64,000 bases of DNA from Halobacteria archaeon AArc-dxtr1 (GTDB lineage Archaea > Halobacteriota > Halobacteria > Halobacteriales > Natrialbaceae), in the NCBI GenBank assembly GCA_025517425.1, contig JAOPJY010000004.1, positions 1 to 64,000 of the forward strand, given 5' to 3'. The position numbers and the translations under genes were made by a program. This document shows, in pieces, positions 1,522 through 9,070 of this stretch. Numbering within the stretch: the stretch's first letter is position 1; the number at the start of each line of letters is the position of its first letter. The notes below the pieces were generated by a model. The model was given only the letters and a program-made list of their open reading frames with translations. It had not been told where the DNA came from and ran no database searches.

Positions 1522-2010
1522 TTATTCGAGTTGGATGTCGCCCTGCATCTGGCCGTGCGGGTAGCAACGGTAGTAGGCCATGTCGCTGCTGGCCTCGAAC
1601 TCGAGGAAGTCACCGTCGTCGTCGGGGTCCGTAATGACCTCTTCTTCGTCGCCGTACAGGTAGTAGTCGTCGACGAGGTCTTCGTTCTCGTCCCAGATGA
1701 TGACGTTGTGGCCGCTGCCGTCTCCCTGCGTCCAGCCGATCTCGTAGGTTTCACCCTCCTCTAAGACCAGCGTTGGGTTCGTCTCGCCAGCGATCGATTC
1801 GGGCTCGAGGCCCTCCCAGCCGCTGGTGATCCCTTCGAGCAGGATCTGCTCTCCGGGCTCGATCGCTTCGGCCTCGTCGCCGTTGTCGTCGTCGCCGTTA
1901 CCGTCGTCGTCGCCGTTGTCGTCACCACAGCCCGCAACGAGGGCGGTCGCCGCCGTCGCGCCCGTAACCTTCATAACGGTTCGTCGTGAGAACGTACTCT
2001 CTCGTGCCAT
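1522..2010 (-). CDS. Halocyanin-like blue copper lipoprotein
   Basis: A 162-residue exported cupredoxin. The N terminus has a Tat motif (SRRTVMK), a hydrophobic stretch and a lipobox ending in Cys28 (LVAGC), followed by an Asp/Gly/Asn linker, so it is probably lipid-anchored on the outer face of the membrane. The copper site of type 1 proteins is visible: His101 (GHNVIIWDE), Cys149, His152 and Met155 (YRCYPHGQM). Halocyanins carry single electrons between membrane redox complexes; the partner here is unknown, and the neighbours (aminotransferase, MFS exporter) do not suggest one. ATG 2010 is chosen over the adjacent upstream GTG because a TATA-like box lies 27 bases upstream, implying a leaderless transcript. 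Confidence 0.9.
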   Translation of the reverse strand: MARESTFSRRTVMKVTGATAATALVAGCGDDNGDDDGNGDDDNGDEAEAIEPGEQILLEGITSGWEGLEPESIAGETNPTLVLEEGETYEIGWTQGDGSGHNVIIWDENEDLVDDYYLYGDEEEVITDPDDDGDFLEFEASSDMAYYRCYPHGQMQGDIQLE

Positions 2011-2033
2011 CACGTTACGCTTCGTACTGCATA

Positions 2034-3621: not shown

Positions 3622-4932
3622 ATGAACGACGACGCGAGCGACGGGACCGACGCGGCCGAGTCGCGGTGTCGATTCGGCACGCGCAGCGTACACGCCGGAC
3701 AGTCACCCGACCCCGAGACGGGTGCGATGGCTCCTGCGATCTACCAGACAACCTCCTACGCCTTCGACGATGCCGATACCGCAGCCGACCTCTACGCTCT
3801 GGAGCGCGAGGGGCACATCTACTCACGGATCTCGAATCCGACGGTCCGGACCCTCGAGGACCGACTCGCCTCGCTCGCGGGCGCCTCGGGCGCCGTCGCG
3901 ACCGCCGCCGGGATGGGCGCGCTCGACTCCATCGTCCTCGTCCTGGCCGAAGCCGGCGACAACGTCGTCGTCTCGACGGATACCTACGGCGGCTCTACTG
4001 CCTACTTCTCGAAGACCGCCTCCCGACGCGACATCGAGGCCCGGTTCGTCCCGACACTCGAGTACGACGCCTACGAGGAGGCGATCGACGAGGACACCGC
4101 CTTCGTCCACGTCGAGACGATCGGAAACCCCTCGCTGGTCACGCCCGACTTCGACCGCCTCGCGGAGATTGCCCACGAGAACGGCGTTCCCCTCGTCGTG
4201 GACAACACGTTCGCGACGCCCGCGCTGTGTCGCCCGCTAGAACACGGCGCCGACGTCGTCTGGGAGTCGACGACGAAGTGGCTCCACGGCTCCGGGACGA
4301 CCGTCGGCGGGGTCGTCTTAGATGGCGGGGAGTTCCCATGGGGTGAACACGGCTACGACGAAATCGCCGGCCAGAACCACGCCTACCACGACGTCGACTT
4401 CTCGCGTGACTTCGCCGACGCGCCACTGGCCGCGGCCGTCCGATACCGGTCCGTCCGTAGTCTCGGCAACCAGCAGTCACCGTTCGACGCCTGGCAGACC
4501 CTCCAGGGGCTCGAAACGCTGCCCCTGCGGATGGAGAAACACTGCGAGAACGCCGCCATCGTCGCTGACTACCTCGCGAATCATGAGGACGTTGCCTGGG
4601 TTACGCACCCGGGACTCGAAGAGCACCCGACCCACGAAACCGCCTCCCGCTATCTCGCAGACTACGGCGGCATGATCGCGTTCGGTCTGGAAGGTGGCTA
4701 CGAGGCCGGCAAGCGCTTCTGTGAGTCCGTCGAGGTCGCCCAGTTTCTCGCCAACATCGGCGACGCGAAGACGCTCGTCATCCACCCCGCGAGTACCACC
4801 CACGGCCAGCTTACCCCCGAGGAACAGGAGGAAGCCGGCGTCACGGCTGATCTGATCCGGCTCTCGGTCGGCATCGAGGATCCTGCCGACATCCTCGCGG
4901 ATCTCGAGCAGGCGATCGAGGCGGCGTCGTAG
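3622..4932 (+). CDS. metY: O-acetylhomoserine sulfhydrylase, Cys/Met metabolism PLP enzyme
   Basis: A 436-residue Cys/Met metabolism PLP-dependent enzyme. The family pattern is clear: RISNPT (residues 69-74), VVDNTFATP, and the PLP lysine Lys219 in ESTTKWLHG. The length (about 430) and the C-terminal block VIHPASTTHGQL favour O-acetylhomoserine sulfhydrylase (MetY, acetylhomoserine plus sulfide to homocysteine) over cystathionine gamma-synthase or lyase. The match with MetX encoded 3 kb downstream on the same strand supports this. The ATPase gene on the opposite strand separates the two. A weak AT-rich box (CATAAG) lies 29 bases before the ATG. Confidence 0.88.
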   Translation: MNDDASDGTDAAESRCRFGTRSVHAGQSPDPETGAMAPAIYQTTSYAFDDADTAADLYALEREGHIYSRISNPTVRTLEDRLASLAGASGAVATAAGMGALDSIVLVLAEAGDNVVVSTDTYGGSTAYFSKTASRRDIEARFVPTLEYDAYEEAIDEDTAFVHVETIGNPSLVTPDFDRLAEIAHENGVPLVVDNTFATPALCRPLEHGADVVWESTTKWLHGSGTTVGGVVLDGGEFPWGEHGYDEIAGQNHAYHDVDFSRDFADAPLAAAVRYRSVRSLGNQQSPFDAWQTLQGLETLPLRMEKHCENAAIVADYLANHEDVAWVTHPGLEEHPTHETASRYLADYGGMIAFGLEGGYEAGKRFCESVEVAQFLANIGDAKTLVIHPASTTHGQLTPEEQEEAGVTADLIRLSVGIEDPADILADLEQAIEAAS

Positions 4933-4977: not shown

Positions 4978-7476
4978 TCACCACCACGGTTCGAGGAGGT
5001 CCTGCGAGCTGTTTGCCGCGAGGAGCCCGCCGACGACGAGCACCGCGAGCGCCGCCGTCAGCGGGGTGAACAGCCCGACCACCGCGACCGGGATCGCAAT
5101 CGCGTTGAACGCGAGGGCCAGCCGGGTGTTCCGGACGAGTCGCCGACGGGCGGCGTCCGCGAGGTCGAACGCCGTCTCCACCGCGGCGAGGTCGTCATCG
5201 GCGATCACGAGATCTGCCGCGTCGGCCGCGAGCGCGGTTGCGCTTCCGAGCGAGATGCCGAGATCCGCCGCGGCCAGCGCCGGGGCGTCGTTGGTCCCGT
5301 CGCCGACCATCGCGACCCGTCGGTTCGCGCTGAGTCGCTCGATCGCGGCCGTCTTCCCGGCGGGCGGGACCGAAGTGAACGCGTGGCTCACCACCGGGTG
5401 GCGGGCGAAGCGCTCGGTGGCCGCCTCGTCGTCGCCGGTCAGCACCACGACGTCGATCCCCCGCTCGCCCAGCCGCTCCAGGCTCTCCGCCCAGCCCGCT
5501 CGCGGCTCGTCGCCAACGACGATCACGCCCGCCGCAGTCCCGTCGCGACCGACGACGACGGGCAGTTGTCCGGCCTTGCGGGCCGCGGCCGCCTGCCCTC
5601 GGACATCCGCAGGTACCGTCCACCCCCGCTCGTCGAAGAGTGACGCCGCGCCGACCAGGACCGTCGAGCCGTCGACGATACCCTCGACGCCCGTTGCGAA
5701 ACTCCGAAACTCGCTCACCGAGCCGGCATACTCGCGGGGTTCGCCGCCGTCCGTTCGGAACTCCTCGTCGTCGGCAGCGAACGCGGCCGCGATGGCCTTC
5801 GCAGCGGGGTGGGCCGCCCGGCGCTCGAGTGCCCCAGCCTCTCGCAGCAGGGCCGCGGGCGCGTCGGCTTCGAGCACCTCCATCGTCCCCGTAGTTAGGG
5901 TTCCGGTCTTGTCGAATACCACGACGTCGACCGCACGCAGGCGCCTGAAGACGGTCTCGTCGAAGACGACGACGCCGTGCTTGAGCGCGCTTTCGAGACT
6001 CGTCGCGACCGACAGCGGTGTCGCCAGCCCGATCGCCCACGGGCAGCCCACGAGAAGTGCCGTCCCGAGCACCGCAACGGTGCCGATCGGTCCGGCACCG
6101 AGGGCGAGCGCCGCCGCGCCGGCGAGAAGCGCGGCGCCGACGACGACCGGAACGAGCCGCGCGGCGACCGCATCAGCGCGGCGCCTGACGCCGTGGTCGG
6201 CGCTCTGAAGTCGCCAGACGGCGTCTCGGAGTCGGTCGAGACTGCTCGTCGCCTCTTCTCCGGTACGGACGACGGCGGCGCCGCCGACGACGATCGCGCC
6301 GCCGACGAGTTCGTCGCCCGCTCGCTTCTCGACCGGGAGGGACTCGCCCGTGACGACCGCCTCCTCGACCGTACACCGTCCCTCGTCGAGCCGGCCATCG
6401 ACCGGGATCCGCTCGCCACGGCGGACGAGCACCCGATCGCCCGGTGACACCGCCTCGACCGGGACCTCGGCCGTCGTCCCGTCCGGCTCGTAGACGCGCG
6501 CGCTGTCGACCTGTGAGACGGTGAGGTCCGTGAGTCGACCCAGAGCCCGCCGCTTGACAGCCGCCTCGTAGAACATCGCGCCGGTCACGGTGGCGGCGAC
6601 GACTACCGTCAGGTCGAAGTAGACGTCCGTCCGGCCGGCCAGCACGGCGATCGTGCTGTAGGCGAAGGCAGTGACCACCGTGATCGAGACGAGCAGGTCC
6701 ACGTTCGGACGGCGCATCTTCAGCCCAACGTAGGCGCCCCGCAGCACCGGCATACCGGTGAAAAACAACACCACGGCGGTCACGACGAAGTAGACACGAA
6801 GGAAGAACAGTCCGCTCTCCCCCTCCGTCCCGAACGCGGCCTCGAACGGATCCAGGGCAGCGATATCGACGAGGGCGGCAAGCTGGGAAGGGTACACCAA
6901 CGTGACGTACGGGACGAGCAGGAACGTGCCAAAGAGCACCCCGGCGGCGTAGCGCATCCCGAGGGTCTCGTCGGTCCGTCGCTTTCGCACCCCCGACACC
7001 TCGCGCGCCCGGTTCGTGGCTCCCCCGCCGCCCGAGGAGTCTCTGCTCGCCCGCTTCCGGAGGTACGCCGTGTACCCCAGCGTGCTCAGCGCGTCGCGCA
7101 GCTCCCTCGGCGAGACTTGGTCGGGATCGTGTTCGATCCGGATCGTCTCCGAGACGTAACTCGCCTCGGCATCGGCGACGCCCGAGATCGCCGCGGCGAC
7201 CGCCTCCAGGAACGCCTCGCACGTCGGGGAGTGCATCCCGTCGATTCGAAGGTACGTGGTTTCCGGCTTGTCGGTTGACTGTTCGTTGCGACCGCCCCCG
7301 GAGGCGTGCACGGTCTTGGGGCTTCTCGCATCGCTCGCGTCCCCGGTAGCAGGGTCGGCGAGTGCATCGTCGACGTCCCGACACCCACTGCTACAGTAGC
7401 CGCCGTCGACGGGGTCGGTCGGGATCGGTCGGCCACAGAGGACACACCGGCTGCGGTCTACGGGATCGGTAGACAG
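4978..7476 (-). CDS. P1B-type heavy-metal ATPase with FixI/CcoI-like N terminus, CTG start
   Basis: A metal-translocating P1B ATPase, 832 residues if started at CTG 7476. The catalytic core is intact: TGES, DKTGT with phospho-Asp522, the HP dipeptide (AAHPAAK) and GDGTNDAPAL. Before it come an HMA-like domain (residues 74-140) and a Cys-x2-Cys, Cys-x3-Cys module (Cys11, Cys14, Cys28, Cys32) like the ATPase-cat_bd domain of FixI/CcoI copper exporters. The frame upstream of GTG 7311 has no ATG, GTG or TTG back to a stop, yet that stretch encodes this Cys module. A near-perfect SD (GGTGGTGATC) precedes the CTG by 4 bases. Two metal motifs are altered: HMA GMHSPTC lacks the first Cys, and the membrane motif is CPW instead of CPC. 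The metal (Cu most likely) is therefore uncertain. Confidence 0.85.
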   Translation of the reverse strand: MSTDPVDRSRCVLCGRPIPTDPVDGGYCSSGCRDVDDALADPATGDASDARSPKTVHASGGGRNEQSTDKPETTYLRIDGMHSPTCEAFLEAVAAAISGVADAEASYVSETIRIEHDPDQVSPRELRDALSTLGYTAYLRKRASRDSSGGGGATNRAREVSGVRKRRTDETLGMRYAAGVLFGTFLLVPYVTLVYPSQLAALVDIAALDPFEAAFGTEGESGLFFLRVYFVVTAVVLFFTGMPVLRGAYVGLKMRRPNVDLLVSITVVTAFAYSTIAVLAGRTDVYFDLTVVVAATVTGAMFYEAAVKRRALGRLTDLTVSQVDSARVYEPDGTTAEVPVEAVSPGDRVLVRRGERIPVDGRLDEGRCTVEEAVVTGESLPVEKRAGDELVGGAIVVGGAAVVRTGEEATSSLDRLRDAVWRLQSADHGVRRRADAVAARLVPVVVGAALLAGAAALALGAGPIGTVAVLGTALLVGCPWAIGLATPLSVATSLESALKHGVVVFDETVFRRLRAVDVVVFDKTGTLTTGTMEVLEADAPAALLREAGALERRAAHPAAKAIAAAFAADDEEFRTDGGEPREYAGSVSEFRSFATGVEGIVDGSTVLVGAASLFDERGWTVPADVRGQAAAARKAGQLPVVVGRDGTAAGVIVVGDEPRAGWAESLERLGERGIDVVVLTGDDEAATERFARHPVVSHAFTSVPPAGKTAAIERLSANRRVAMVGDGTNDAPALAAADLGISLGSATALAADAADLVIADDDLAAVETAFDLADAARRRLVRNTRLALAFNAIAIPVAVVGLFTPLTAALAVLVVGGLLAANSSQDLLEPWW

Positions 7477-7480
7477 CGTC

Positions 7481-7490
7481 GATCACCACC
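7481..7490 (-). promoter_or_regulatory. Strong SD site deciding the ATPase CTG start
   Basis: The minus strand reads GGTGGTGATC, matching 9 of 10 bases of GGAGGTGATC, the full complement of the 16S rRNA 3' end. It ends 4 bases before the CTG at 7476 and overlaps the TGA of the small upstream reading frame. Confidence 0.7.
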
Positions 7491-7626
7491 GACGCTCGAT
7501 CTCCCGTCGCTTCCACGGAATCTCGCGGGCGCGATCGGTGGTGTGGGTGCCGTCGGCGAACCGGCCGGACGCTGCTCCGTCTTTCACCGAGCGAGACTCG
7601 GTCGATCCCGGCAGTCGGGACTCCAT
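7483..7626 (-). CDS. Possible 47-residue leader protein upstream of the metal ATPase
   Basis: A short basic reading frame from ATG 7626 to TGA 7483 (MESRLPGSTES to REIERRW). It resembles nothing I know and has no Cys or His cluster for metal. Support comes from position: a TATA-like AATAAACG box is centred 28 bases upstream of its ATG, so a leaderless transcript would start at this ATG, and its stop codon overlaps the SD of the ATPase, with 6 bases between stop and CTG. This layout would give translational coupling. It may equally be untranslated 5' leader of the ATPase mRNA. Confidence 0.35.
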   Translation of the reverse strand: MESRLPGSTESRSVKDGAASGRFADGTHTTDRAREIPWKRREIERRW

Positions 7627-7650
7627 CGGCGAAAATTCGGGGTCGACGAC

Positions 7651-7658
7651 AATAAACG
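7651..7658 (-). promoter_or_regulatory. TATA-like box driving the small frame and the metal ATPase
   Basis: CGTTTATT on the minus strand is centred 28 bases before ATG 7626. The predicted transcript start is at about 7626, which gives the ATPase a leader of about 150 bases. Confidence 0.5.
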
Positions 7659-7830
7659 CCGCCCCGAATGCCTGCTCCCGACGCCTGCCGGGGAGCGGTC
7701 GAAGAGAGCGAATCTTGCCGTAACTGTGGGTTATTAGTCCACTCGAGAATATGCATGTCATACATGAATTGGGACGGAACGTCAGCGCCGGGGTGTGGGC
7801 CGAGCGCGCGCTTTGTGCCCCCGATGGTAC

Positions 7831-7837
7831 GGAGGTG
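7831..7837 (+). promoter_or_regulatory. SD site deciding the metX start
   Basis: GGAGGTG lies 6 bases before GTG 7844. It argues for that start over the in-frame ATG at 7751, which would add 31 residues not typical of MetX. The stretch 7627-7843 otherwise holds the divergent promoters of the ATPase and metX. Confidence 0.65.
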
Positions 7838-7843
7838 GGCGCT

Positions 7844-9070
7844 GTGACGACCCGAAACACCGTCGACCTCGGCCACTTTCAGTTCCTCTGTGGCGAGTCG
7901 ATCCCAACTCTCGAGGTCGCTTACGAGACCTACGGCGAGTTCACGGGCGACAACGCCGTCTTGCTCTGTCACGCGCTCACCGGGAGCGCCCACGCGGCTC
8001 GCCGCCCCGACGCTGGCGGCGAGACTGCGGGCCAGGCCCGCGCCTGGTGGGGTGACCTCGTCGGGCCCGGGAAGGCGATCGACACCACCGAGTACTTCGT
8101 CGTCTGTGCGAACGCGCCGGGCTCGTGTTACGGCACGACTGGTCCGTCGAGCACGAACCCCGAAACAGGCGAGCCCTACGGGACCGACTTCCCGCCGGTC
8201 ACCGTCGGCGACTGGACGCGCTCGCAGCGGCTCCTCCTCGACGAACTCGGCGTCGGCCGTCTCCACGCCGTCGTCGGCGGTAGCGTCGGCGGCATGAACG
8301 TCTTAGATTGGCTCCGGCGGTATCCCGACGACGTCGACCGCGCTGCCGCTGTCGCCGCGGCCGCCCGCCTCGACGCTCAGTGTCTCGCTCTTGACACCGT
8401 CGCCCGGCGGGCGATCACGTCCGATCCGAACTGGAACGGCGGCCACTACTACGGCTCGTCGGACGAGTCCGATGGTGGTTCCGGGCCCGAAGCCGGCCTC
8501 GCCCGCGCCCGCCAGATCGGCCACATTATGTACCTCTCGAAGGCGTCGATGACCCGCAAGTTCGGCCGCCGGTCGGCCGGCCGGGAAGCCGGTCGGTCGT
8601 CGCCGCCGGACGACGCGGCCGCTTTCTTCCCGTATCGGGAGGTCGAGTCCTACCTCGACTATCAGGCCGAGAAGTTCACCGACCGCTTCGACGCCAACAG
8701 CTACCTCTACATGACCCGTGCGATGGACGACTTCGACCTCTCGGCGGGCTACGAGTCAGACGCCGACGCGCTCGCGGCCTTCGAGGGCGAACTACTCGCC
8801 ATCTCCTTTACCGGCGACTGGCACTTCACCGTCGAGCAGTCAGAGCACCTCGCGGAAGCCTGCCGCGAGGCCGGCGTCGACGTCGCCCACCACGTGATCG
8901 ACTCCGACCACGGCCACGACGCCTTCCTCGTCGAACCGGAGAAGGTCGGGCCGCCGCTGTCGGCGCTGCTCGCCGACGGTCTCGAGGGCCGGTCGATCAC
9001 CGATACCGTCGAGGACGAGATCGAATCGAGTTCGTTCGCGCCGGTGCACACGAGTCTGTTCTCGGAGTGA
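7844..9070 (+). CDS. metX: Homoserine O-acetyltransferase
   Basis: MetX transfers acetyl from acetyl-CoA to homoserine, feeding the MetY sulfhydrylase encoded at 3622. The 408-residue protein has the alpha/beta-hydrolase fold signatures of the family: the early strand [11 protein letters not shown], the HALTGSAH oxyanion region, the nucleophile elbow GGSVGGMN with Ser147, and the C-terminal [10 protein letters not shown] that supplies the catalytic His (an Asp such as that of TGDW completes the triad). GTG 7844 is preferred because of the SD site just upstream and because the product then begins, like its relatives, about 20 residues before the [11 protein letters not shown] strand. A short low-complexity insert (residues 204-212) and an Arg/Gly-rich insert (236-252) are minor oddities. 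Confidence 0.9.

Follow-up and report, generated by a model that had tools for sequence, protein, structure and literature searches.

A recurrent CTG as the probable start codon of a haloarchaeal metal P-type ATPase, six nucleotides past a short upstream reading frame

Where does translation of a metal P-type ATPase begin if its reading frame offers no ordinary start codon ahead of the metal-binding module at its N-terminus? The question is raised by a gene on contig JAOPJY010000004.1 of Halobacteria archaeon AArc-dxtr1. (The window denotes the whole stretch of 64,000 nucleotides that was analysed.) On the minus strand the ATPase frame runs without interruption from 7482 to 4981 (834 codons, stop at 4980-4978), and is bounded upstream by an in-frame TGA at 7485-7483. 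Between this TGA and GTG 7311-7309 the frame contains no ATG, GTG or TTG, as the original prediction had claimed. The third codon past the TGA is CTG (7476-7474, minus strand), from which translation yields L/M-STDPVDRSRCVLCG. The Cys pairs encoded downstream of it are C11-x2-C14 and C28-x3-C32, numbered from the CTG. The features on which the choice of the start codon turns are the following.

4978-7476, minus strand: metal P-type (P1B) ATPase, 832 amino acids plus stop (Pfam HMA, E1-E2_ATPase and Hydrolase; NCBIfam TIGR01525).
7474-7476, minus strand: CTG, proposed ATPase start codon, 6 nt past the TGA; its homologous codon is GTG or ATG in relatives, CTG in loci L039 and L195.
7381-7446, minus strand: N-terminal C-x2-C ... 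C-x3-C module, lost if GTG 7311 is the start.
7309-7311, minus strand: GTG, first ordinary start codon, residue 56 from the CTG, rejected as start (weak Shine-Dalgarno pairing, position downstream of the Cys module).

Relatives were drawn from GTDB contigs, from whole genomes of the genus, the family, the class and a second family, and from plasmid records. The Cys module was present in 79 of the 80 non-redundant relatives belonging to the ATPase subfamily of the window. Among the 140 non-redundant loci with a C-x2-C/C-x3-C module, 137 had an in-frame ATG, GTG or TTG preceding it. The three exceptions were the window, L039 (Saliphagus infecundisoli) and L195, the last from a genome in the same family as Haloarcula, and in all three the order was TGA, two codons, CTG. 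In the closest relatives of L039 and L195, found on plasmids of Haloarcula, Halobaculum, Salinigranum and others, TAA or TGA was followed by two codons and then by GTG or ATG. The alignment thus placed GTG or ATG at the homologous spot, 6 nt past the stop of a short upstream open reading frame (ORF). Translation from CTG 7476 with the Cys module included, as originally predicted, is supported by these homologous starts, and the comparison makes CTG 7476 very probably the start codon of the ATPase, an assignment that we regard as well supported.

Upstream of the CTG three further elements, all on the minus strand, were recognized.

7481-7490, minus strand: Shine-Dalgarno-like sequence GGTGGTGATC, overlapping the TGA of the upstream ORF.
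7483-7626, minus strand: upstream ORF of 47 amino acids (MESRLPG...REIERRW) plus TGA, candidate leader ORF.
7651-7656, minus strand: TATA-like box TTTATT, 24 nt before ATG 7626, candidate promoter of a leaderless transcript.

The 10-base Shine-Dalgarno sequence had been predicted to lie four bases before the CTG, and both its coordinates (7490-7481) and the 4-nt gap proved correct. The 16S rRNA of this genome ends with GGATCACCTCC, so that the ideal Shine-Dalgarno sequence is GGAGGTGATC, with which GGTGGTGATC agrees at 9 of 10 positions. The duplex between the anti-Shine-Dalgarno sequence and the 22 nt preceding CTG 7476 was calculated at -14.7 kcal/mol, a strength reached by 0.25% of 2,000 random 22-mers taken from the window (mean -5.7 kcal/mol). 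For the 22 nt preceding GTG 7311 the value was -4.5 kcal/mol, and ten other start sites examined all paired with the anti-Shine-Dalgarno sequence, at -7.4 to -14.5 kcal/mol. Matches to GGAGGTGATC with at most one mismatch occur 13 times on the two strands of the 64 kb, against 6.7 expected; the presence of such a sequence is therefore unremarkable in itself, and it is its exact position that is improbable by chance.

The upstream ORF, which was absent from the original prediction, opens at ATG 7626, closes 6 nt before the CTG and shares its frame with the ATPase. TTTATT is one of three all-A/T hexamers on the minus strand between 7300 and 7800, and its 24-nt spacing from the ATG presumably fits a haloarchaeal promoter of a leaderless transcript; the spacing is compatible with a predicted leaderless transcript whose 5' end would lie 0-5 nt before ATG 7626. 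The 47-residue peptide had no match in Pfam or NCBIfam, and an Rfam search of window positions 7000-8200 returned no match. Its composition is weakly gene-like, with GC contents by codon position of about 0.64/0.66/0.77 versus 0.75/0.52/0.86 in the ATPase. The peptide is poorly conserved, and in the relatives it is under little purifying selection (pN/pS 0.67-1.05). Such low constraint fits a role in ribosome loading but also non-translation; in its own right the peptide probably matters little.

From this arrangement we infer, with reasonable confidence, that CTG 7476 opens the second frame of a transcript starting at or just before ATG 7626, and that it is reached by reinitiation after a leaderless upstream ORF. 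Ribosomes would load directly on AUG 7626 of a leaderless mRNA, pass through the 47 codons of the upstream ORF and terminate at UGA 7485-7483. The Shine-Dalgarno sequence GGUGGUGAUC, which overlaps this stop, would hold the terminated ribosomes, and translation would restart at the CUG 6 nt further, with initiator methionine as residue 1. The frame, the Shine-Dalgarno sequence, the CTG, the homologous starts and the recurring upstream ORF layout (see below) are read from sequence and comparison, and it is from these that the transcript start, the leaderless translation, the reinitiation route and the N-terminal methionine are inferred.

The distance of 6 nt between stop and start lies within the coupling distance of termination-reinitiation known from Haloferax volcanii, where coupling was kept at very short distances, dropped by approximately 60% at 13 nt (one gene pair) and was abolished at 22 nt (PMC10666635). 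In the same organism reinitiation was strongest where stop and start overlapped or almost touched (PMC10666635). Leaderless transcripts make up 72% of the coding transcripts of H. volcanii (PMC4983044), and reinitiation, more than de novo initiation, is the main use of haloarchaeal Shine-Dalgarno motifs (PMC6728339).

The layout recurs among the relatives. At 22 loci of the set an upstream ATG was preceded by a TATA-like box at a distance of 22-25 nt, and at 21 of them the stop of the upstream ORF (15-33 codons in the relatives) fell between -11 and +6 nt relative to the ATPase start. Dinucleotide shuffles that treated the loci as independent gave an expectation of about five such cases, a figure to be taken as a guide and not as a probability, since the loci are related and the search was made after the pattern had been seen. 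The distance from stop to start is +6 nt in the window, the Haloarcula group and L039, +3 nt in L118, -4 nt in L195 (CTGA), L055 and L124, and -11 nt in L114, L116 and L192. Taken one by one the -4 and -11 cases are weak (null probabilities 0.15-0.82); the shuffle count tells less than the fact that a change of frame leaves the stop near the start. Starts with CTG only were found at 3 of 21 loci with an upstream ORF versus 0 of 119 without one (Fisher p 0.003, relatedness ignored), and if TTG-only starts are included the counts become 5 of 21 versus 0 of 119 (p 5e-5, again with relatedness ignored). In L058, a metagenome-assembled genome whose promoter and ORF start closely match those of L055, the upstream ORF and the ATPase appear to form one continuous frame (1190-1310) that leads directly into the HMA domain, the Cys module being missing. 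Either a natural fusion or an error of assembly seems the likely cause; the locus was counted for coupling, because such a fusion is expected if the upstream ATG is a working start.

The same CTG could be reached by a simpler route, in which ribosomes bind the Shine-Dalgarno sequence directly on a leadered mRNA and the upstream ORF is dispensable. Initiation of this kind requires no upstream translation, the site is among the strongest 0.25% and suitably spaced, and the low constraint on the upstream peptide would be understandable. However, the short distance between stop and start recurs in several reading frames, the CTG-only and TTG-only starts are confined to loci with an upstream ORF, and haloarchaeal Shine-Dalgarno motifs serve mainly reinitiation (PMC6728339). 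Direct binding is therefore unlikely, though it deserves consideration.

A further possibility is that ATG, GTG or TTG is the true or ancestral codon at 7476, and that the CTG reflects a base error or the recent decay of such a start. These codons are indeed the ones used by relatives, the branch leading to the window protein is long (0.75), and the search gave no second assembly of the same strain in which the base could be compared. Nevertheless, the 834-codon frame is intact with the TGES, DKTGT and HP motifs kept, and the presence of CTG at the homologous position of two other genomes makes a lone sequencing error at 7476 unlikely. On balance a base error or recent mutation seems improbable. 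In a tree of 40 proteins the window ATPase was placed apart from L039 and L195. A single clade of the three was rejected by the AU test (p-AU 8.75e-05), and joining the window to the plasmid clade was rejected as well (p-AU 0.0021); because of the long branch of the window protein its exact placement is less sure than these tests suggest. With the same caution, a single CTG ancestor common to the three cases is rejected, and the CTG start arose at least twice.

Automatic annotation might instead start the ATPase at GTG 7311, without the Cys module. This is the first ordinary start codon, and RefSeq gives shortened forms in several relatives, but the module is present in nearly all subfamily members, the pairing before GTG 7311 is weak, and there is no all-A/T hexamer about 25 nt upstream of it; a start at this codon is very improbable. 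In eight of the nine plasmid relatives checked the RefSeq start lay inside the frame as we judged it, by 23 to 195 codons: 23 in L193, 51 in L186, L187, L189 and L190, 60 in L185, 90 in L188 and 195 in L192. In L191 the two agreed. In L188 the RefSeq call passed over an ATG at the homologous place. Automatic annotation can thus drop the metal-binding module. Finally, readthrough of UGA 7485-7483 to give one protein from ATG 7626, suggested by the frame that upstream ORF and ATPase have in common at every +6 and +3 locus, the window included, can be dismissed, since the Haloarcula GTG group has TAA as the stop, the upstream ORF of the -4 and -11 loci lies in another frame than the ATPase, and most relatives have an ordinary GTG or ATG start past the stop.

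The window protein matched the Pfam families HMA, E1-E2_ATPase and HAD hydrolase (Hydrolase). It scored 377.8 bits with NCBIfam TIGR01525 (heavy-metal P-type ATPase), above the cut-off of 346.25, and 333.3 bits with TIGR01511 (copper-translocating P1B ATPase), below the cut-off of 397. CPC-type P1B ATPases such as CopA and FixI/CcoI have CPC in the sixth membrane helix; the window has CPW at this place.

6037-6045, minus strand: Cys-Pro-Trp at the position of the transmembrane metal motif CPC (xPW in 84 of 84 aligned subfamily members, CPC in six paralogues).

In the 84 aligned haloarchaeal members the residue before PW is Ser, Cys, Thr, Ala or Gly, and the M-x-x-S-S of helix 8 of the paralogues is not kept. 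Most members carry GMHSxxC as the HMA metal motif. The substrate of the pump is therefore uncertain. A literature search for SPW in connection with P1B-ATPases found nothing. The module had been described as being of the FixI/CcoI ATPase type. The Cys spacing is present in the window and bears out a loose resemblance, but Pfam ATPase-cat_bd (PF12156) had no match in the window and gave 18.1 and 19.8 bits in relatives (cut-off 27), and the membrane motif is CPW, not CPC; the label 'FixI/CcoI type' is best restricted to a likeness of the N-terminal module.

The ATPase gene (4978-7476, minus strand) lies, as if inserted, between two genes of the opposite strand, 3622-4932 and 7751-9070, which on inspection of their sequences are candidates for an O-acetylhomoserine sulfhydrylase (metY-like) and a homoserine O-acetyltransferase (metX-like). 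Approximately 3 kb from the pump, at 1522-2013 (minus strand), a small lipoprotein-like ORF ending with YRCYPHGQMQGDIQLE is a candidate halocyanin/plastocyanin blue copper protein.

The proposed arrangement of leaderless upstream ORF and reinitiation at the CTG is a variant of known translational coupling. We suggest tentatively that haloarchaeal reinitiation after a leaderless upstream ORF relaxes the choice of start codon, so that CTG and TTG become workable for full-length proteins, and that the xPW family uses the arrangement repeatedly, perhaps for setting or regulating the level of the pump. A recurrent, homologous CTG with a candidate mechanism would allow a clear-cut test of the tolerance of reinitiating ribosomes for weaker start codons. 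The start codons named for archaea in a review are AUG, GUG and UUG (PMC7531240). The closest comparison within the same genome is L002, a paralogue of the haloarchaeal CPC type that shares the Cys module, the HMA domain and the catalytic motifs; it has CPC, GMHCATC and an ATG start, whereas the window protein has CPW, GMHSPTC and CTG. With the close or overlapping gene pairs of H. volcanii (PMC6728339, PMC10666635) the locus shares a gap of a few nucleotides between stop and start, and a Shine-Dalgarno sequence at the junction. Those pairs are annotated genes, whereas in the window the first frame would be a short leader ORF, on a transcript predicted to be leaderless, and translation would restart at a CTG. 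CTG is also listed as the start of small H. volcanii proteins detected by mass spectrometry (PMC12482152, Table 1); these are proteins of 31-70 amino acids from small RNAs of a haloarchaeon, whereas the window encodes an 832-residue pump whose CTG start has comparative support.
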